Shown one piece after another: positions 3,310 to 17,999 of a stretch of 24,372 nt of DNA. Position 1 is the stretch's first letter; each line of letters starts with the position of its first letter. Position numbers and translations under genes: made by a program. The notes below the pieces were generated by a model, which saw nothing but the letters and a program-made list of their open reading frames with translations, was not told where the DNA came from and searched no databases. The DNA comes from a virus, in IMG/VR virus record IMGVR_UViG_3300044971_002751, positions 1 through 24,372 of that record, one strand, 5' to 3'.

Positions 3310-3902
3310 ATCGTTCGCTCCAGCAGCTTGCGGAGCGTGGCGGCTGTCTGGTCATCCGGCACATACGCGGTTCGCAGCCTCGCTTCGGCGCGATAGATCG
3401 CCTCCCGCTCCTCGTCGGTGAGCGTGGGCGAGCGAAAGAGCGGGACGACTGCGGCATCGACATAGACGTTATTAGCCTCGGCGTGTTCGCGGAGCAGGCT
3501 GACGTACTGGTGATCGTTGTGCAAAATCGCCCACGCCACAGGCTCCTGCTGCACCGTTTCGCGACTCTCTACGCTACAGTTTCGCCGCACACTACCCTCG
3601 CACGGTGTAGCGTGCGCGGCGGGTGTAGCGTCGGCGGGTTCGATAGGCTCGGACCTATCAAATTGCCGCAGCCGCTCGATCTCATCCGCGGCCTGCTCCG
3701 AGAGCCTGTCCGTGGCCTTGAAAGCGTATGCCCTGTCGCGGAGCTGGTTAACGATGTCCCCAGCGTGGTGTTTTGGCGACCCGCTCCGCAGCATCTCAAT
3801 CTCGCGGGCCGCCTCGTCCATGAGGTCGCTGGCCGGCACCGCATCGGTGGCGATGGCCCACCTCCGCAGGCGGGACACGATGTCCCCCGAATACTCAGTC
3901 AT
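3306..3902 (-). CDS. Modular phage protein with duplicated GDIV-RLR helix unit, 198 aa
   Basis: The ATG at 3902 has GAGGA nine bases upstream and overlaps the previous gene by eight bases. Residues 6-39 and 48-79 are tandem copies of one unit of the form GDIVxxLRxxA...EAAxEIExLR, a helix-turn-helix-sized module seen singly in many phage ead/Ea22-like proteins. A polar linker follows. Then comes EPVAWAI...VVPLFRSPTLTDEEREAI (120-169) and a last helix ending QTAATLRKLLERTI, both of which resemble recurring segments of mosaic phage accessory proteins. I infer a mosaic protein built from common phage segments. No catalytic motif is visible and the function is unknown. It is in the middle of a leftward operon, coupled on both sides by overlaps. 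Confidence 0.72.
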   Translation of the reverse strand: MTEYSGDIVSRLRRWAIATDAVPASDLMDEAAREIEMLRSGSPKHHAGDIVNQLRDRAYAFKATDRLSEQAADEIERLRQFDRSEPIEPADATPAAHATPCEGSVRRNCSVESRETVQQEPVAWAILHNDHQYVSLLREHAEANNVYVDAAVVPLFRSPTLTDEEREAIYRAEARLRTAYVPDDQTAATLRKLLERTI

Positions 3903-4098
3903 AGAGTAATTCCTCGCTGATCATGTCCCGAATCAGGTGCATGTGCCGCGCCAGTTCCTCGCTCGGCTCGCCGTGCTTCAGCACCCCACGGCAGTATTGA
4001 GCGATCTCCCAGAGGGCCGCGCGGGCTTGGGGGCCGTGTATGGCGGCAAGGAAGTCGGGGCGCTCCTTGGGGAGCTGGAACTCAAGGATGGCTTTCAT
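3895..4098 (-). CDS. Small conserved-type phage protein, 67 aa
   Basis: The 67-residue protein begins MKAILEFQLPKERPDFLAAI and contains ARAALWEIAQYCRGVLKHGEPSEELARHMHLIRDMI, a pattern I associate with a widespread family of very short phage proteins (strand, then two helices, with the WE..QYCR..LKHGE core). Its function is unknown. The ATG at 4098 has no Shine-Dalgarno sequence at a usable distance; instead TAGACT lies seven bases upstream, so the message is probably leaderless. It heads the leftward three-gene operon and is divergent from the methyltransferase gene, sharing a 77-base control region. It overlaps the next gene by eight bases. Confidence 0.8.
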   Translation of the reverse strand: MKAILEFQLPKERPDFLAAIHGPQARAALWEIAQYCRGVLKHGEPSEELARHMHLIRDMISEELLYD

Positions 4099-4105
4099 GC
4101 GTTCG

Positions 4106-4130
4106 AGTCTACGCTCCTGTCAACCGCTAC
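4106..4130 (-). promoter_or_regulatory. Repeated GTAGCG-TTGACA element, copy D (leftward)
   Basis: On the minus strand GTAGCGG-TTGACA (4130-4118) is followed after six bases by TAGACT (4111-4106), and the start codon at 4098 comes seven bases later. It shares GTAGCG-N-TTGACW-N6-TANACT with the copies at 4143, 5367 and 8248. It is probably the promoter, or promoter plus operator, of the leftward operon. Confidence 0.6.
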
Positions 4131-4142
4131 AAGAATTTCTCC

Positions 4143-4167
4143 GTAGCGTTTGACACGCCCGCATACT
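4143..4167 (+). promoter_or_regulatory. Repeated GTAGCG-TTGACA element, copy A (rightward)
   Basis: GTAGCGT-TTGACA (4143-4155), CGCCCG, then CATACT (4162-4167); the GTG start codon is eight bases later. It lies back to back with copy D: the CGCTAC and GTAGCG blocks form an inverted repeat at 4125-4130 and 4143-4148 around the palindromic core AGAA-T-TTCT. A regulator binding the centre could control both directions. Confidence 0.6.
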
Positions 4168-4175
4168 GGACAGGC

Positions 4176-5486
4176 GTGAGGTACGCCAGCGTATGCGATG
4201 GGATAGGTGCCGCTCATGTGGCTTGGAAGCCATTGGGCTGGGAATGCGCGTGGACGAGCGAGATTGAGCCATTCCCATCGGCCGTGGTCGATCACCACTT
4301 CGGCCTGCCCAACCTGGGCGACATGACAAAGATCACGGAGGAGATGCTCAATGCCAGGGGAACAGTTGAACTTCTGGTCGGAGGAACCCCGTGCCAATCC
4401 TTCTCAGTTGCCGGCCTCCGAGGGGGATTGGCTGATCCGCGTGGCAACCTGGCCCTCCGATTCGTCCAGCTTGCTTCTGTCCTCAAGCCCGAGTGGATCG
4501 TTTGGGAAAACGTGCCGGGTGTCCTCAGTAGCGGAAAAGGACGGGATTTTGGAACCTTCCTCGGGGCGTTGGAGCAGCTCGGGTATGGGTGGGCCTACCG
4601 GACGCTTGACGCTCAGTGGTTTGGAGTCGCCCAAAGACGCCGCCGTGTGTTCGTTGTCTGCCATGCTCGAGACTGGCGCCGTGCCGCAGCGGTTCTTTTT
4701 GAGCGCGAAAGCGTGTTCGGGAATCCTCCGACGCGCGGAGAAGCGGGGCAAAAAGCTGCCGGAGCAGTTGTCGCTCGCTCTGCGCGCAACGGCGGGGCAA
4801 GCAACCAAGACCTAGACGCCGGCCATCTGATTCTCAGCAACGATCCGGCCCACGCCATCTGCCGCAACGAACAGCGGACATACACCAATGAGGGCTGTGT
4901 GTTCCAGTTACGGAATGTGGTGGCCCAGCCAGCCCCTGACCCCGTGGCGTTTCAGTCCAACCTCGGCTCCCACGGGGGCGACGTGTTTGAGGACGGCACC
5001 TCGCCAACGGTGCGCGTCGGAAGCAGCCTGGGCATCCCCTTCCCGCCAGCAGTCGCCTTTAAGCCATCCCACTACACTCGCGGCAAAGATGGCGCGCCTT
5101 CTGAGGTTGCCGCGCCGCCTTCGGCTGATGCCGACAAGGGCGACCAAGATACGGTCGTCGCCCAAGGCATCGGTGTTCTTGCTGCGCCGATGGCCGTTCG
5201 CCGCCTCACCCCACGCGAGTGCGAGCGGCTCCAAGGATTTCCAGACGATTACACGCTGATCCCCTACCGCAACAAGCCGGTCGTGGACTCACCGAGATAC
5301 AAGGCTCTAGGGAACTCAATGGCGGTTCCCGTGATGCGGTGGATTGGTGAACGAATAAATCTGGTGGTAGCGCTTGACACGCCCTTAAAACAGGGAGATA
5401 GCCGATATCACTCAACAAGCTTTAAGGGAGAAAGCCGTGAAGAACTATCTGGTGCGATGGAAGGAAACCGAACAAAAGCCCGATGA
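4176..5486 (+). CDS. Cytosine-C5 DNA methyltransferase (Dcm type), 436 aa
   Basis: It transfers a methyl group from S-adenosylmethionine to C5 of cytosine in DNA. The conserved motifs are all in order: motif I as VCDGIGA (6-12), motif IV GGTPCQSFS with catalytic C73, motif VI ENV (111-113), motif VIII QRRRR (153-157), a target-recognition region of about 160 residues, motif IX/X RRLTPRECERLQGFP and RYKALGNSMAVP (374-385). The recognition region contains the VAFxPSHYTRGKDGAPSEVAxPxSADADKGDQ-type segment usual in phage enzymes. The start is the GTG at 4176, which puts motif I at the very N-terminus. There is no good Shine-Dalgarno sequence and the message may be leaderless. No stop codon follows the methylase core, so about 40 extra residues run through the next gene's control element and 50 bases into that gene. 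No restriction nuclease partner is adjacent, so it is probably a protective or regulatory orphan enzyme. Its target site is not readable from sequence. Confidence 0.95.
   Translation: MRYASVCDGIGAAHVAWKPLGWECAWTSEIEPFPSAVVDHHFGLPNLGDMTKITEEMLNARGTVELLVGGTPCQSFSVAGLRGGLADPRGNLALRFVQLASVLKPEWIVWENVPGVLSSGKGRDFGTFLGALEQLGYGWAYRTLDAQWFGVAQRRRRVFVVCHARDWRRAAAVLFERESVFGNPPTRGEAGQKAAGAVVARSARNGGASNQDLDAGHLILSNDPAHAICRNEQRTYTNEGCVFQLRNVVAQPAPDPVAFQSNLGSHGGDVFEDGTSPTVRVGSSLGIPFPPAVAFKPSHYTRGKDGAPSEVAAPPSADADKGDQDTVVAQGIGVLAAPMAVRRLTPRECERLQGFPDDYTLIPYRNKPVVDSPRYKALGNSMAVPVMRWIGERINLVVALDTPLKQGDSRYHSTSFKGESREELSGAMEGNRTKAR
5367..5395 (+). promoter_or_regulatory. Repeated GTAGCG-TTGACA element, copy B, inside the methyltransferase 3' end
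   Basis: GTAGCGC-TTGACA (5367-5379) is followed by CGCCCT and TAAAAC, with a perfect CCCT-TTAAAAC-type dyad (CCCT 5382-5385, AGGG 5392-5395). Unlike the other copies it lies about 40-70 bases before the start codon it would serve (5437), giving a leader with its own ribosome binding site. It is also translated as part of the methyltransferase C-terminus. Confidence 0.55.
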
Positions 5487-5763
5487 CGAGAAACTCATCG
5501 GCATGATCAAAGCCAGGGATTTGCTCGACCTGTGGATGTCGATGGACGAGGTGATGAATCCGCATGAGGCTCAGTACCTGTCCGTGAAGGGCGAGGGCGG
5601 GGTCATCATGTACGGCAGCGAGCTGATGACAACGTCAAACATCACAGAGCAGCGGGATGTTGAGGGCGGCCCACAGTGGAAGACTTTCGTGGAGCTGGCC
5701 GGCGGCGAGCGTCTTTTTGAGTCCATGTACAAGAAATGGCATTCGGTGAAGAACGATGGATGA
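5437..5763 (+). CDS. Unknown phage protein, 108 aa
   Basis: The GTG at 5437 has AGGGAG seven bases upstream. The 108-residue product begins MKNYLVRWKETEQ and is a soluble alpha/beta protein by composition: an N-terminal strand, a helix (DEKLIGMIKARDLLDLWMSMDEV), two short strands (AQYLSV, GVIMYGSELM) and a C-terminal helix. It has no cysteine cluster, signal peptide or membrane segment. Its first 50 bases overlap the methyltransferase gene in another frame. The repeated element copy B just upstream suggests it starts its own message. It is followed by an eight-base overlap with the next gene. The family is not recognised. Confidence 0.8.
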   Translation: MKNYLVRWKETEQKPDDEKLIGMIKARDLLDLWMSMDEVMNPHEAQYLSVKGEGGVIMYGSELMTTSNITEQRDVEGGPQWKTFVELAGGERLFESMYKKWHSVKNDG

Positions 5764-6094
5764 CGAACCCCGCATCATCACGGTGGGAAAATCCCACCCT
5801 CCCACCGATGTCGCCAAATGGCTGCGAGAGCAGCCCCATGACCGGCGGATCGTCTTGAGCTGTGTGGATGCACCGAGCGTGAGGGGCGAGTACCCCACCC
5901 ACCCCTCACCTGACCCGTGCGTGGATGTGATCGTGAACAGCCTGGTGGCCGGCCAGCGAGCTGGCGTCCTAGTCCGCGTGATGGATCACCAAGCTAGAGA
6001 TCCGGCCCGCCTGTTTCAGATCGTCATCGAGGAGGCCAACGCTGCTTTTGCTGACCTAGCCAAGGGGGCAGCGGGTCAAATAAGCGAAAAGTAA
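5756..6094 (+). CDS. Unknown phage protein, 112 aa
   Basis: The ATG at 5756 overlaps the preceding gene by eight bases, indicating translational coupling. The protein has a strand-rich core (RRIVLSCVDAPSV, CVDVIVNSLVAGQRAGVLVRVM) and a C-terminal helix (PARLFQIVIEEANAAFADLAK). Two cysteines (C36, C55) are not in a metal-binding spacing. There is no hydrophobic segment long enough to cross a membrane. It is one of several unknown genes in the block between the methyltransferase and the PP-loop gene. I cannot assign a function. Confidence 0.75.
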   Translation: MDDEPRIITVGKSHPPTDVAKWLREQPHDRRIVLSCVDAPSVRGEYPTHPSPDPCVDVIVNSLVAGQRAGVLVRVMDHQARDPARLFQIVIEEANAAFADLAKGAAGQISEK

Positions 6095-6105
6095 GGAGGT
6101 GCGGT

Positions 6106-6270
6106 GTGCGACCAGGCGGCGACGATGACCTGTTGCGGATCATGTCCGAGATTGAGCGTGGCCGGCGGGAGATGCGAGAGCGTTACCGCCGGCAGCAGTT
6201 GATGATCGATCTGGTTGCGGGCGTCCTCTGGGCGGTCTTTGGTATTTTGGCTTTGGGGGTGTTCAAGTGA
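6106..6270 (+). CDS. Small single-pass membrane protein, 54 aa
   Basis: A GTG at 6106 has an AAGGAGG ribosome binding site six bases upstream and opens a 54-codon frame. Residues 1-30 are charged (MRPGGDDDLLRIMSEIERGRREMRERYRR), and residues 32-53 form one hydrophobic helix (LMIDLVAGVLWAVFGILALGVF) ending in a lysine. The arginine-rich stretch before the helix predicts the N-terminus inside the cell. The stop overlaps the next GTG start by four bases (GTGA). Small membrane proteins of this kind in phage early regions may act on the host envelope or in superinfection exclusion, but holins are usually longer or have two helices, so the role is open. Confidence 0.8.
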   Translation: MRPGGDDDLLRIMSEIERGRREMRERYRRQQLMIDLVAGVLWAVFGILALGVFK

Positions 6271-6644
6271 GCGTCAGTGTTTACGGCGAGGCCACAAGAG
6301 TGGCGCGGGCGGCAAGGTCTACTAGGTCTTTCTGCGAGACTTTCGAGGTGTCGGTCTACATGGCCGGCGACATCGAACACGCGAAACAGGTCATCCGGAG
6401 ATACTGCAACTCGCACCCCTGCTGCGTCACGGTGGCCCCGACTGCCTACATCTACCGCGGCGGCGAGGAGGCAGGCTTTGTGGTGGCGTTTCGGAATTAC
6501 CCACGGTACTCCAGCGATGACTGCACGCTCGAGGAGCAAGGCCGGGACTTGGGGATGCTGCTCAAGGACGAGTTGGGGCAGGACAGCTTCATGGTTGTCT
6601 CTCCCCGCGGAACTATATTGAACTCTGTGCGAGGAAAGCCGTGA
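6267..6644 (+). CDS. Unknown phage protein with YMAGD and GGEEAGFVV motifs, 125 aa
   Basis: The GTG at 6267 overlaps the preceding stop as GTGA, with a G-rich stretch (GGGGGTG) before it. An internal ATG at 6360 is possible but would remove the conserved-looking FEVSVYMAGD strand. The core pattern is strand (FEVSVYMAGDI), helix (AKQVIRRYC), Cys pair (CC at 52-53), strand (VTVAPTAYIYRGG), EEAGFVVAFRNYPRY, helix (LEEQGRDLGMLLKDEL), strand (SFMVVSPRGTI). This alternation looks like a small ferredoxin-fold-type alpha/beta protein. That is inference, and I do not recognise a named family. It overlaps the PP-loop gene by four bases and is probably co-translated with it. Confidence 0.78.
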   Translation: MSVSVYGEATRVARAARSTRSFCETFEVSVYMAGDIEHAKQVIRRYCNSHPCCVTVAPTAYIYRGGEEAGFVVAFRNYPRYSSDDCTLEEQGRDLGMLLKDELGQDSFMVVSPRGTILNSVRGKP

Positions 6645-7495
6645 GCGAGAAACACATCTTGAACCTGGGGGCCGGCGTTCAATCCACAGCCCTCTTCCTC
6701 ATGTCGATCGCGGGCGAGGTGCATAAATTCGACTATGCAGTCTTCGCGGACACCCAAGAAGAACCGGACGATGTTTACCACCACCTTGAGTGGCTTGAGT
6801 CTCTGGGCGGCCCTCCGATCCTGCGATGCACGGCCGGCCGGCTGGGCGATGCGTTGGACAAAGGCACGGACGCCAACGGGAATGGCCGCACGGACGGCGG
6901 CCACTACATCTCAATCCCGGCGTTTACCAAGCACCCTGACGGCAGGATGGGAGCTGTGCAGCGGCAATGCACCAAGGACTTCAAGGTTGTCCCGATTGAG
7001 CAGGCAATACGGCGGCGAGTCTTCGGCGCGGCTCCAGGCAAGGGGATCCCCAAAGACTCTGTGTGCGTCCAGTACATGGGCCTGTCATATGACGAACCCA
7101 AACGGGTTATTCGCGTAACGGAGCGGTTCCTCTCAAAGCCCAAGAACTGGAAAGTTCAGTTCCCGCTCTTTGAAATGCAGATGACTAGGGGCGACTGCAT
7201 GGCCTACCTGAAGGAGCGAGTCCCTCACGAAGTCCCGCGGTCGGCCTGCGTCTTCTGCCCGTTTAAGAAAGACGATGAATGGCGGCGGCTTCGCGACCAC
7301 GACCCCAAAGGGTGGTCTAGGGCGATTGAAATCGACCGTGTCTGTAGGACGGGAACTGGACTAGACGCCCAGCGGTTCCTTCATCGGCAGTGCGTTCCGC
7401 TGGAGCAAGTGGATCTGCGAACCGAGCAGGAGCGTACTGGGCAGATGATGTTTCAAGGATTCCAAGACGAGTGCGAGGGGTACTGTGGTAACTGA
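6641..7495 (+). CDS. PP-loop ATPase, PAPS-reductase-like, 284 aa
   Basis: The GTG at 6641 has GAGGA about seven bases before it and overlaps the previous gene by four bases. Residues 10-16 (GAGVQST) are a PP-loop of the adenine-nucleotide alpha-hydrolase fold, right after a hydrophobic strand, and YAVFADTQEEPDDVYHHLEWL follows as in phosphoadenosine-phosphosulfate reductase-like proteins. RQCTKDFK (108-115) is the family's substrate-loop motif. SACVFCPFK (C203, C206), C251, C278 and C282 suggest a bound Fe-S cluster or zinc. Relatives include cysteine-biosynthesis reductases, DndC of DNA phosphorothioation and many phage proteins of unknown role. No dndA, dndD or dndE-like gene is present, so sulfur modification of DNA is not shown. 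The gene is coupled by an 11-base overlap to the putative nuclease-fold gene that follows. Confidence 0.85.
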   Translation: MSEKHILNLGAGVQSTALFLMSIAGEVHKFDYAVFADTQEEPDDVYHHLEWLESLGGPPILRCTAGRLGDALDKGTDANGNGRTDGGHYISIPAFTKHPDGRMGAVQRQCTKDFKVVPIEQAIRRRVFGAAPGKGIPKDSVCVQYMGLSYDEPKRVIRVTERFLSKPKNWKVQFPLFEMQMTRGDCMAYLKERVPHEVPRSACVFCPFKKDDEWRRLRDHDPKGWSRAIEIDRVCRTGTGLDAQRFLHRQCVPLEQVDLRTEQERTGQMMFQGFQDECEGYCGN

Positions 7496-8003
7496 CTCAG
7501 GCCGGCCGGCGACAGCTCAGACCGTCACTGTCACGCTGGACAACTCCGAATACCTCCATGCCCTCATAGCCGGCTCCCTCCGCAGGGCGTCTGCCAGGGA
7601 GAAGGGGCGGAAGAACTACTACGGGGCGCAGTCGGCCGACTCCGAGCTGCTCGACCTCATAGGCTCCGTGGGGGAATGCGTGGTGGCCAAGCACCTCGAC
7701 AGGTTCTGGGCCGGCGCCGGCCTGTTCCGCGGCGAGGATGTGGGCGAGTACCAAGTCCGCACCACCACCTATGACTCCGGTCATCTGGTGCTGAACAAGA
7801 ACGACTCCGATGACAAGAAGTACATCTTGGTGTGCGTGAACAGCGGAGTCGGCAAGATCCGTGGCTGGATGTACGCCCGCGACGGGAAGCAGGAAAAGTA
7901 CTGGAAGGACATGTCTGGCCGGGGCGGCGCCTTCTATGTCCCGCAATCCGACTTACGGCCGATTTCCACGCTCAAATCCCCCAGTGTTGACAACGAGTTT
8001 TAG
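7485..8003 (+). CDS. Putative PD-(D/E)XK-like phage protein, 172 aa
   Basis: The GTG at 7485 follows AGGGG closely and overlaps the PP-loop gene by 11 bases. The centre reads like a minimal restriction-endonuclease-type fold: a helix with a conserved-looking GxxGE (G60-E64) and VAKHL, then D85 in EDVGEYQVRT (84-93), where D and Q-V-R take the place of D-(E/Q)xK, followed by strands HLVLNKND and KYILVCVNS, GWMYARDG and the ending YVPQSDLRPI. Unknown phage proteins with this GE..AK / DVG..QVRT / VPQS..LRP signature are common in environmental phages, as far as I recall. The lysine of the canonical site is replaced by arginine, so activity is uncertain. It could act with the PP-loop enzyme on nucleic acid. 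It is the last gene before a new promoter. Confidence 0.7.
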   Translation: MVTDSGRPATAQTVTVTLDNSEYLHALIAGSLRRASAREKGRKNYYGAQSADSELLDLIGSVGECVVAKHLDRFWAGAGLFRGEDVGEYQVRTTTYDSGHLVLNKNDSDDKKYILVCVNSGVGKIRGWMYARDGKQEKYWKDMSGRGGAFYVPQSDLRPISTLKSPSVDNEF

Positions 8004-8017
8004 GCGGTGCCTATACT
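7987..8017 (+). promoter_or_regulatory. Promoter for the helix-turn-helix gene, probably leaderless
   Basis: A perfect TTGACA (7987-7992) and TATACT (8012-8017) lie 19 bases apart. TATACT ends six bases before the ATG at 8024, so transcription should begin at or beside the start codon. No Shine-Dalgarno sequence precedes the ATG. It overlaps the 3' end of the upstream gene. Confidence 0.65.
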
Positions 8018-8023
8018 CGCAGC

Positions 8024-8248
8024 ATGGCTAAGAAGAAACCGAGAAAGATCATGCCGATCGACCTGGAGGAGATGGTCACCCTCCCAGACGCCGCCAAGCT
8101 CATGGACGTTGCCGAGTCCTATGTGCGGAAGCTCGTGCGCGAGAAGCGGGTGGTGGGCTTGAAGTTCGGTCGCAACTATCTGGTCAGCCGGCAGTCTGCC
8201 GCTAAGTTCCAGAAGAAGCCGGGATACGGCCGGCCCAAAAGCCGCTAG
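8024..8248 (+). CDS. Helix-turn-helix excisionase-like DNA-binding protein, 74 aa
   Basis: After a basic start (MAKKKPRKIMP), residues 16-60 (EMVTLPDAAKLMDVAESYVRKLVREKRVVGLKFGRNYLVSRQSAAKF) fit the MerR-like excisionase-family winged helix-turn-helix: helix PDAAKLMDV, recognition helix ESYVRKLVREKRV, wing GLKFGRNYLVS. The protein is the usual size for phage excisionases and small transcription regulators of this type. No integrase is in the window, so a regulator is as likely as a recombination directionality factor. The ATG at 8024 has no ribosome binding site and lies six bases after a -10 box, so the mRNA is probably leaderless. Its position just before copy C of the repeated element makes it a candidate for the factor that reads those elements, which is inference. 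Confidence 0.85.
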   Translation: MAKKKPRKIMPIDLEEMVTLPDAAKLMDVAESYVRKLVREKRVVGLKFGRNYLVSRQSAAKFQKKPGYGRPKSR

Positions 8249-8279
8249 TAGCGCTTGACTCGCCCATAAACTGGGAGTC
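8248..8279 (+). promoter_or_regulatory. Repeated GTAGCG-TTGACT element, copy C
   Basis: GTAGCGC-TTGACT (8248-8260), CGCCCA, TAAACT (8267-8272), then seven bases to the ATG at 8280. It contains a dyad CCCA-TAAAC-TGGG, flanked by GACT and AGTC. GGGAG lies only two bases from the ATG, too close for a normal ribosome binding site. It starts on the last base of the upstream stop codon. Confidence 0.6.
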
Positions 8280-8531
8280 ATGGCGAAACGCTACGAATGC
8301 ATCGGCGGCCCATTGTGCGGCGAGAAGTTTCCGCTGTTCTATGGGCTATCCATGTCCCAAGCGTTTGGGACTATCGATCGCGATGGCGGTGCGCACTACT
8401 ACCGCCTCTGCATCGTCCGCGATGAGATGGATCGCGTAGCCAAGTTCTGGCATTACGCCGGGGTTGAGCTGAACCCATTCATGCCGCCGACGCTTCTCCC
8501 ACCTCGGCGGATGTTCCGAGAAAACTGCTGA
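8280..8531 (+). CDS. Unknown small protein with CIGGPLCG motif, 83 aa
   Basis: The 83-residue product begins MAKRYECIGGPLCGEKFPLFYG. Short proteins starting with a strand and a C/GGP-x-C/D-G turn are frequent in phage genomes, where their role is unknown. The rest alternates strand-like pieces (YYRLCIV, AKFWHYAGV) with a proline-rich end (NPFMPPTLLPPRR). Cysteines at 7, 13, 44 and 83 do not form an obvious zinc site. The start is fixed by the repeated element, whose TAAACT box lies seven bases upstream. It is the last gene before two hairpins that close this block. Confidence 0.75.
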   Translation: MAKRYECIGGPLCGEKFPLFYGLSMSQAFGTIDRDGGAHYYRLCIVRDEMDRVAKFWHYAGVELNPFMPPTLLPPRRMFRENC

Positions 8532-8864: not shown

Positions 8865-9248
8865 ATGCCGCTGCCAACACGAACGCTCGAGCAATTGCAG
8901 GAGTGGGTGTGGTCTGAACTTCCAGTTCGCAAGAACGTGGCGGGCAAGGAGGCGGTGTTCGATGCCGTTTCCGCTGCCGTCCATGAGTGGCCCGATGAGG
9001 AGCTTTCTTCTTCGCCGGCCGGCGGCGAACGCGAGATGGCCGCGATGCTCAGTCTCAGCAAGAGCGTCAGGCGGCACATGGCTCTCGTCTATGGGGAAAA
9101 GCAGTTTGGCTCCATGTGGGTGATCGCCCTCCAGATCCTTCTGCCGCTGATCGTTGATCTGGTTCTCAAGTGGTGGCGCCGCCGGAAGGAACACCGCGCC
9201 CGCGTCCGCGTATGGAGGAGGAAGTGGGTCAATGGCTCCGAACAGTAA
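8865..9248 (+). CDS. Single-pass membrane protein, 127 aa
   Basis: The ATG at 8865 is four bases after the previous stop, with a weak GGGAAATGAG upstream. Residues 1-80 are soluble and mostly helical. Residues 83-103 (SMWVIALQILLPLIVDLVLKW) are a strong transmembrane helix, followed by a very basic tail (WWRRRKEHRARVRVWRRKW). By the positive-inside rule the C-terminus is cytoplasmic and the N-terminal domain would be outside. It might be a lysis-related or ejection-related protein, but it lacks the features of canonical holins or spanins. The last 17 bases overlap the start of the DNMT3-like gene. Confidence 0.78.
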   Translation: MPLPTRTLEQLQEWVWSELPVRKNVAGKEAVFDAVSAAVHEWPDEELSSSPAGGEREMAAMLSLSKSVRRHMALVYGEKQFGSMWVIALQILLPLIVDLVLKWWRRRKEHRARVRVWRRKWVNGSEQ

Positions 9249-10143
9249 GACACTGATGGGAGCCGTCCGAGCGTCCCAGCGGCCCATCAACGTGGTGTCC
9301 GCATTCGACGGGATTGCCGGTGCCAGAGCTGCCCTCGACCAAGCGGGCGTCCCTGTTGGCTCATACACGGCCTACGAAACAGATCCCACCGTCGCAGCGA
9401 TAGCCTCGAGGAACTATCCGGACATCCAGCAGCGTGGCGATGTCCGCGGGTTCGTGCGACCGGAGGGCAGCACCGATCTGCTCTGTGCCGGCTTCCCGTG
9501 CCAGGATCTCTCCCGTGGAAATGTCACCGGAAAGGGGCTGGAGGGCGAGCGATCCGGCCTGTTCTGGGAGCTGCCCAAGATTCTGGATGAGGCACAGCCG
9601 AAGCACTTCCTCATCGAGAACGTAGTTCCGAAGGGATCTCGCGGCGATCAGAACGTCGATGTCATCTCCCGCGCTCTCGGCGTCGATCCGGTGTTCCTCG
9701 ATGCCAAGGACTTCGGGCCGATGGCTCGACCTCGAGCATTCTGGACGAACATCCCGGTTGGCGACTATTCGCCGTCGCAGGCCATGTTCCGAGATGCACT
9801 GCTGGGGGAGGTGCCTGACAAGTACCAGATCTCTCCCAAGGGCGTGGCGTACCTCAACCGCCAGGCACCCGATGGCCGCACCCACTTCGAGAAGCATGGG
9901 ATGGACATCAATGACCCGAAGGCCCGCACCATCCCGGCCGTCATCAGCAAGGGCATCCCATACAACGCCGTGCGGATGGATGACGGCAGCTTCCGCCGGA
10001 TGACGCCGCAGGAAATCGAGGGGATGTTTGGCTTCCCGCAGGGCTACACCGAGGGAACGTCCGACTTCCAGAGATACAAGGCACTAGGAAATTCCTGGAG
10101 CATTCCCACCGTCAGTCACGTTCTTCAAGGGCTTGTGCAGTAA
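9232..10143 (+). CDS. Cytosine-C5 DNA methyltransferase, DNMT3-like, 303 aa
   Basis: The ATG at 9232 has GGAGG ten bases upstream, and an earlier in-frame ATG at 9154 would lie deep in the preceding gene. The conserved motifs are motif I VVSAFDGIAG (21-30), motif IV AGFPCQDLS with catalytic C90, motif VI IENVV (128-132), motif VIII DAKDFGPMARPRAFW (157-171), and motif X RYKALGNSWSIPTVSHVL. Several of these match the catalytic domain of animal DNMT3 better than bacterial Dcm: FDGIAG, DLS after PC(Q/N), ENVV, the VDPVFLDAKD...R.RAFW.N.P stretch and the GNSWSIP.V.H ending. The recognition region is short, as in DNMT3. It is the second C5 methyltransferase of the window and very different from the first. 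It overlaps both neighbours and sits in the structural operon, so it is expressed with virion genes. Confidence 0.93.
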   Translation: MAPNSKTLMGAVRASQRPINVVSAFDGIAGARAALDQAGVPVGSYTAYETDPTVAAIASRNYPDIQQRGDVRGFVRPEGSTDLLCAGFPCQDLSRGNVTGKGLEGERSGLFWELPKILDEAQPKHFLIENVVPKGSRGDQNVDVISRALGVDPVFLDAKDFGPMARPRAFWTNIPVGDYSPSQAMFRDALLGEVPDKYQISPKGVAYLNRQAPDGRTHFEKHGMDINDPKARTIPAVISKGIPYNAVRMDDGSFRRMTPQEIEGMFGFPQGYTEGTSDFQRYKALGNSWSIPTVSHVLQGLVQ

Positions 10144-17211: not shown

Positions 17212-17238
17212 TGCAGAGCTGACATCATCTACGCCTCT

Positions 17239-17269
17239 AACAGCTCGCGGCTCAACACCGCGGGCTGTT
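17239..17269 (+). terminator. Terminator-like hairpin after the capsid operon
   Basis: A 12-bp stem with one G-T wobble (17239-17250 with 17258-17269) and a 7-base loop follows the decoration-like gene. The tail (ATGCTTT) is not a clean T run, so it may be a partial terminator or stabilise the 3' end of the capsid message. The gene at 17283 starts 14 bases after it. Confidence 0.55.
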
Positions 17270-17282
17270 ATGCTTTACAGAC

Positions 17283-17999
17283 ATGGAAGAGCGAACGTGT
17301 AATGTCTGCGGCGGCACCTATCCTCTCGACAGGCAGCACTTCCGGTGGCGGAAGGACTTGGAGATCTTCACGGCTGAATGTCTCTCCTGCCGCGCCAAGC
17401 AGCGGCGTGAGAGCAAGGAGCGTGCGGCCTTCAAGCGGGCCGAGGCTCTAGCCACGATTGAGTCGGCCGGCGTAGACATCTTCCTCCGCTCGGCCCAGAA
17501 GGGCGGCTCCAACATCCCGCACACAGCGGAGGTGATTGAGAAAATCTTCCAGTACTTCGGCGGCAGCGGTGGCATGGCCGCGGTGATGGTCAAGCAGTAC
17601 TGGGACGCCGCACCAGGCAGCTCTGCCCGCAACCGCCTGCTCGAGACGATCTGCCGCATGGTCACGAAAAACGTGGACTCTGGCGGCGCGAAGAAACCTC
17701 TGTCCCTGTGGACAGAGGAGGAGCTGGAAAACGAGCTGAACCAGCGATTTGAGCAGGCTCTGTCTGCTTTCCAGGGGAGAACCATCAATGTCAGACCCGC
17801 AGAAGCCCTCCCGGCCCCGAAAGAAGCGGCACCCGAAGGTGCAGCCGCCGCAGATCCCGAACATACCGACGATATCCGAGTACCAAAAAGAAAGCCTCAA
17901 AGAGCTTCAAAGCGAGCTGCGAGAGCGGAAGACAGAAGCTCTACGCCTCTACCGAGCGAACCCGCAGCAGGAGGAGATCCACAAGTGCCGAGCGAGTGA
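17283..17999 (+). CDS. Zinc-finger protein in the small-terminase position, 238 aa
   Basis: The ATG at 17283 has no Shine-Dalgarno sequence, and TATGCT ends eight bases before it, so it may be leaderless or depend on the hairpin just upstream. Cys6-x2-Cys9 and Cys33-x2-Cys36 form a zinc ribbon (NVCGGTYPLDRQHFRW...AECLSCRAKQ) of the kind found in phage HNH-related proteins and DNA-binding proteins. It lacks an HNH catalytic core. The middle (HTAEVIEKIFQYFGGSGGMAAVMVKQYWDA...LLETICRMV) is helical. The last 70 residues are low-complexity and overlap the terminase gene by 212 bases in another frame. Location directly before TerL and a DNA-binding start suggest a small terminase subunit, which recognises the packaging site. 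That is inference from context. Confidence 0.68.
   Translation: MEERTCNVCGGTYPLDRQHFRWRKDLEIFTAECLSCRAKQRRESKERAAFKRAEALATIESAGVDIFLRSAQKGGSNIPHTAEVIEKIFQYFGGSGGMAAVMVKQYWDAAPGSSARNRLLETICRMVTKNVDSGGAKKPLSLWTEEELENELNQRFEQALSAFQGRTINVRPAEALPAPKEAAPEGAAAADPEHTDDIRVPKRKPQRASKRAARAEDRSSTPLPSEPAAGGDPQVPSE

Follow-up and report, generated by a model that had tools for sequence, protein, structure and literature searches.

We describe a short sequence element that recurs in the DNA of a tailed phage, seen in a stretch of 24,372 nucleotides (the window; positions 1 to 24,372 of IMG/VR record IMGVR_UViG_3300044971_002751). The element consists of a TTGAC box followed at a rigid distance by a -10-like box, and it is confined almost wholly to one unstudied, planctomycete-linked phage clade. 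The element is likely a promoter specific to these undescribed phages, its two boxes set at an unusual and rigid spacing, and it is linked to a gene that the clade carries for a likely sigma factor. We lean towards the explanation that it is a compact, clade-specific promoter of planctomycete-associated tailed phages, its likeliest reader being the phage's own sigma-70 factor, which resembles the extracytoplasmic function (ECF) group. The four copies in the window are genuine, and the element is more widespread than the window alone can show.

Sequence, geometry and conservation of the element

A sequence-only reading of the window had described four copies of GTAGCGNTTGACWN6TANACT, and a search allowing up to three mismatches returns exactly these four (0.02 expected; 0 of 100 shuffled sequences reach four). 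Copy A (GTAGCGGTTGACAGGAGCGTAGACT; 4106-4130, minus strand) has TTGACA at 4123-4118 and the -10-like TAGACT at 4111-4106, 7 nt before the ATG at 4098. Copy B (GTAGCGTTTGACACGCCCGCATACT; 4143-4167, plus) carries CATACT 8 nt before the GTG at 4176, copy C (GTAGCGCTTGACACGCCCTTAAAAC; 5367-5391, plus) carries the box TAAAAC, and copy D (GTAGCGCTTGACTCGCCCATAAACT; 8248-8272, plus) carries TAAACT 7 nt before the ATG at 8280. Three of the copies were also the best matches when the upstream regions of the window's virus were compared pairwise and blind on its 33.9 kb contig (G001, 100% identical over the part represented by L001). The three plus copies had been said to agree at 17 of 18 bases in every pair, which is so for two pairs, the third agreeing at 16. 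TANACT is matched exactly at 4106-4111 and 8267-8272 but not at 4162-4167 (CATACT) or 5386-5391 (TAAAAC), and across relatives the box is better written TANAAY. The minus copy (4130-4106) lacks the CGCCC part and has AGGAGC there; the 5' GTA of the element is weakly conserved, and the conserved core, which we use as the consensus, is GCNNTTGACACGCCNNTANAAY. The gap between TTGACN and TANAAY is a rigid six bases in all copies.

As had been proposed, every copy directly precedes a transcription unit. Copies A and B form a back-to-back pair, separated by 12 bp and flanked by divergent genes, and divergent element pairs are also present in two relatives (G002 and G019). Copy D heads a gene block leading into the structural genes. 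Copy C overlaps the 3' end of a methyltransferase frame (4176-5486), beyond the conserved methyltransferase domain; it has no close start codon. Its box is followed after 9 nt by GCCGATA, and the leader that comes next carries a Shine-Dalgarno sequence ahead of the GTG at 5437. The GCCGATA stretch 9 bases after the box is common to copy C, its orthologues and L189. A sigma-28-like reading of TAAA...GCCGATA at copy C was rejected, the spacing being 4 bases short and the arrangement absent from the other copies.

From the end of the box to the start codon there are 7-8 bases at three of the four copies (4098 on the minus strand, 4176 and 8280), a distance that suits a -10 box and would put TTGAC near -24. 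This leaves no room for a normal leader; therefore, if the box is a -10 element, the mRNAs at these three copies would be expected to have little or no leader. Neither host nor phage gene sets showed leaderless -10 boxes to be enriched in general, so the predicted near-leaderless starts would be a feature of these sites and not of the genomes at large. The sequence-only reading had also held that the gap of six does not suit sigma-70, and indeed the canonical 16-18 bp separation of -35 and -10 boxes is found in none of the copies. TTGACW is not a conventional -35, because a -10 placed 17 bases downstream would coincide with the start codon; a canonical sigma-70 promoter using TTGACW as its -35 is thereby excluded.

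Relatives were collected with the terminase and neighbouring proteins. Orthologous copies stand before the same genes in up to five genomes while the flanks diverge: the counterpart of copy A precedes the same gene in G019 (GCGTTTGACGCCCCCGTAGAAT), that of copy B the same methyltransferase gene in G003 (GCATTTGACAGAGCCGGATACT), and copy C has orthologues in G002, G003 and G004 and a similar copy in G019. Before the 8280 gene, GC[AG][CT]TTGAC[TG]CG[CT]CCATAAACTGGG is retained in five genomes, with an upstream flank that varies and is unrelated in G019. A hairpin or dyad (CCCATAAACTGGG) at copy D was considered and dismissed, since it is not conserved in the other copies and is broken in G019.

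The box lies at a fixed distance from start codons confirmed by homology. When a box was required 6-8 nt before a start codon, TTGAC occurred at gap 6 in 11 cases and in at most four at any other gap; the four cases at gap 19 are a single conserved promoter, that of the 8024 gene. With the start-codon requirement lifted, 20 of about 35 TTGAC/TA-box pairs fell at gap 6 within the clade whose members encode the sigma-like protein described below (the sigma-bearing clade), against at most two at any other gap except for five at gap 19, which stem from one conserved ordinary promoter. In relatives outside the clade, the gap-6 count was one.

Clade restriction, candidate reader and rival explanations

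The weight-matrix scan that the sequence-only reading had suggested gave 26 matches of at least 16 bits in 110 pieces, compared with 3.7 in shuffled sequences, and the matrix recovers further copies in distant relatives left out of its building. A matrix with 14 site groups finds matches in the sigma-bearing clade only, with 1.7 expected by chance over the whole set and none in G008, G011-G018 or G020. Across 2.9 million IMG/VR contigs, an exact scan with the consensus matched 10, nine of them in the clade. The exact element occurs in 0 of 294 planctomycete genomes and is not enriched in a Pirellulaceae metagenome-assembled genome (MAG); therefore, the element is not a host promoter, and we rule that reading out. 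Among 84,980 genomes, the only terminase relatives are contigs binned in planctomycete MAGs (55-75% identical), including L158, L159 and L160, binned with Planctomycetia and Pirellulaceae MAGs, and this binning suggests that planctomycetes are the hosts of the clade. The terminase, major capsid and portal proteins all lack relatives among the INPHARED phage records, and our literature searches returned no planctomycete start-site or promoter map and no study of a planctomycete phage sigma factor. Transcription programmes of phages tied to Planctomycetes thus appear undescribed in the literature and phage collection searched.

Gene-content comparison revealed a family of proteins of 170-173 aa, which we aligned. 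Four of six members match Pfam Sigma70_r2 (best E 2.1e-6), matches to sigma-70 region 4 are weak (best E 0.015), and against PHROG the family matches 'RNA polymerase sigma factor' (8.1e-5). The family is very divergent, the Pfam matches of its first member lying below the cut-offs, and the phage protein is likely a divergent ECF-like sigma-70 factor. All seven relatives for which the early region is covered carry the gene for this protein (G002, G003, G005, G006, G007, G009 and G010), at L107:12680-13201 (+), L109:6977-7498 (-), L125:10874-11395 (-), L128:11012-11524 (+), L135:5149-5664 (+), L137:11092-11604 (+) and L115:1062-1580 (-). In all seven, an element lies 4.5-5.8 kb upstream of the sigma-like gene on the same strand. 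Other copies precede the late (structural) operon. The sequence-only reading had called the element phage-specific and a control element, a description well supported by its restriction to one phage clade, its fixed distance to the start codon and a sigma-70-family protein encoded by that clade. Its suggestion of a promoter for an unusual sigma factor likewise gains good support from clade restriction, geometry and the sigma-like gene, promoter activity itself being predicted from sequence.

Several observations weigh against the phage sigma as reader. The structure model of the sigma-like protein is of low confidence (mean pLDDT 63), and its fold matches are not significant, most of the top-ranked ones being sigma factors. 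The window does not include the sigma gene, nor is the gene seen in the window virus's partial 33.9 kb contig, which is without the early region. We infer its presence in this virus because G002, a relative with about 90-95% identity in most of the stretches that the two share, carries the early region with the sigma gene. Co-occurrence is not specific to the sigma, as a helicase and other early genes also co-occur with the element. Furthermore, G006 has the sigma but only a single weak element, with no copy ahead of its 8280 homologue, and two relatives with distant sigma homologues (G012 and G013) have no element; a blind pair search of their upstream regions found no analogous motif.

In the mechanism we favour, the 3' box TANAAY would serve as the -10 element. 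Transcription would begin 6-8 bases downstream of it, so that the mRNAs of several genes would have no leader or almost none. The GCNN-TTGACACGCC part would act as an upstream recognition element, not as a -35, and would sit one helical turn closer than a normal -35. The reader would be the host core RNA polymerase joined to the phage's small ECF-like sigma-70 factor from the early operon. A first, host-driven round of transcription would yield the sigma, the element heading the sigma operon would then amplify it (self-amplification), and the remaining copies would turn on the middle and late blocks, namely the methyltransferase divergent pair and the structural operon. A bolder version, which we advance only as speculation, is that a sigma-70-family factor of planctomycete phages reads a two-box -24/-12 promoter (TTGAC, 6 bp, TANAAY) and not a -35/-10 promoter. 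If true, sigma region 4 or a linker would contact DNA one helical turn nearer the start than in known sigma-70 holoenzymes.

The main rival, possible if doubtful, is a host sigma-70 -10-only promoter (TANAAY) overlapped by the site of another phage regulator, an activator or repressor binding GCNNTTGACACGCC, such that specificity would come from that factor and not from a sigma. TANAAY does resemble an ordinary -10, no conserved -35 was found 17 bases upstream of the box, and the near-leaderless genes 8024 and 17283 have TATACT or TATGCT 6-8 nt before their ATG without the element. Yet the gap is invariant in 14 independent site groups, an activator site at about -24 would clash with the polymerase, and the sigma-like protein is the sole regulator recognised as common to element carriers. 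The sequence-only reading had offered an operator overlapping a promoter as an alternative, with the protein encoded at 8024-8248, a helix-turn-helix (HTH) protein, as the candidate to test for binding. This alternative is weakened: the element is asymmetric, unlike typical dimer operators, and no homologue of the protein was found in G005, G009, G010, L058 or L189, some of these records being partial. Because such distant carriers of the element lack a homologue, the HTH protein is probably not the clade-wide reader, and we set it aside as such.

The remaining alternatives fare worse than the overlapped -10-only promoter. It is improbable that the element is a non-transcriptional repeat for replication, packaging or recombination that lies upstream of genes by chance; copies are few and mostly in intergenic gaps, as such a repeat might be, but several unrelated genes have the box on their coding strand at a fixed distance from the start codon, and copies stand back to back at divergent genes. 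The consensus of sigma-54 promoters is TTGGCACGN4TTGCA, with rigid -24/-12 spacing. TTGACACGN4TA is spaced in the same way, and TTGACACG and TTGGCACG agree at seven of eight bases with identical spacing and a gap as rigid as in sigma-54 promoters. A variant sigma-54 promoter is nevertheless very improbable, given that the -24 box always has GA and never the hallmark GG, that the -12 GC is absent in the aligned copies, and that a Pfam scan of 48 G003 open reading frames (ORFs) yields neither sigma-54 nor an enhancer-binding protein. We give least credence to a promoter of a phage single-subunit RNA polymerase. The run TAAACTGGGAG or TAAAACAGGGAGA recalls T7-type initiation, and GGGAG directly follows the box in copies C and D, but the G run is not conserved (CGAAC in copy A, TAAGT in a G019 copy). 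The scan of 48 G003 ORFs likewise gave no RNA_pol family, and 18 records gave no PF00940 match, though the control of that last search gave no signal either.

Genes next to the copies

Downstream of copy A lies a 67-aa ORF (3895-4098, minus), to which no function was assigned; it has homologues with the same ATG in G004 and G019 and no match in Pfam or PHROG. Copy B precedes a C-5 cytosine DNA methyltransferase (4176-5486, plus; Pfam PF00145, E 5e-53) with the N-terminus MRYASVCDGIG, whose start codon is supported by homologues. Its frame continues about 40 codons beyond the conserved domain, across copy C into the 5437 gene (window 5357-5486). Two C-5 cytosine methyltransferases occur in this one small phage fragment, at 4176-5486 and 9241-10143. 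The first gene after copy C is a 108-aa ORF (5437-5763, plus), likewise of unassigned function, with a homologue in G004 and no match in Pfam or PHROG, and between copies C and D (window 6641-7495) lies a phosphoadenosine phosphosulfate reductase-like protein (PHROG 424).

The first gene after copy D encodes an 83-aa protein of unassigned function (8280-8531, plus) that shares 82-99% identity and its ATG with counterparts in G002-G004 and G019, and has distant homologues in G006 and G020. It is preceded by the gene for the 74-aa HTH/excisionase-like protein (8024-8248, plus), which has a sub-threshold Pfam match to HTH_17 and a PHROG match to DNA-binding/excisionase proteins. Upstream of this gene (window 7987-8024), TTGACA-N19-TATACT-N6-ATG is kept in G003, G004 and G019 and the compact spacing is absent; the 19-base gap between these promoter-like boxes is unusually long, and the start is again near-leaderless. 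At gene 17283 (window 17235-17283), a hairpin (CGCGGCTCAACACCGCG) lies upstream and TATGCT stands 8 nt before the ATG; G003 and G004 have other sequence in place of the hairpin region and retain TATCAT or TATGAT near the same ATG.

Relation to known promoter systems

A clade-wide promoter together with a candidate sigma makes a temporal programme predictable from sequence and directly testable, and the compact spacing, if confirmed, would probe the flexibility of sigma-70-type promoter recognition. Like a canonical sigma-70 promoter, the element has TTGACA-like and TATAAT-like boxes, whereas its gap is six and never varies, compared with 16-18, and no -35 stands at the normal place. With sigma-54 promoters it shares the inter-box distance and the rigid spacing, but the GG and GC dinucleotides are absent and the 3' box is -10-like. 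The phage protein, at about 173 aa with region-2 and region-4 matches, resembles ECF sigma factors (group IV of the sigma-70 family), although it is very divergent from them. ECF promoters normally have GGAAC-type -35 boxes and gaps of 16-17 bp.

In phages 7-11 and phiEco32, the promoters of the phage sigma lie ahead of the sigma-gene operon and ahead of the structural genes (PMC4331800). The present clade shares with these phages a phage-encoded sigma-70-family factor (in seven relatives) and a low-copy motif, few and well-conserved copies of which stand before the sigma operon and the structural genes in both; in both, too, there is no recognisable -35, and a -10-like box is joined by an adjacent upstream extension (PMC4331800). 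The phiEco32/7-11 core measures about 9-12 bp (tAATGTAtA, TGATGTTATA) and is joined directly to the TATA part (PMC4331800), whereas the element here is 22 bp, with TTGAC held rigidly 6-7 bases upstream of the box and a GC motif beyond it on the 5' side. Its consensus differs from the phiEco32/7-11 motif (tAATGTAtA / TGATGT), and, unlike in those phages, several genes here appear leaderless. Phage ECF-type promoters without a recognisable -35 have also been described (PMC5333181). Because the layout matches that of 7-11 and phiEco32, and because such ECF-type promoters are known, we consider that the element probably serves as the promoter of the phage sigma.

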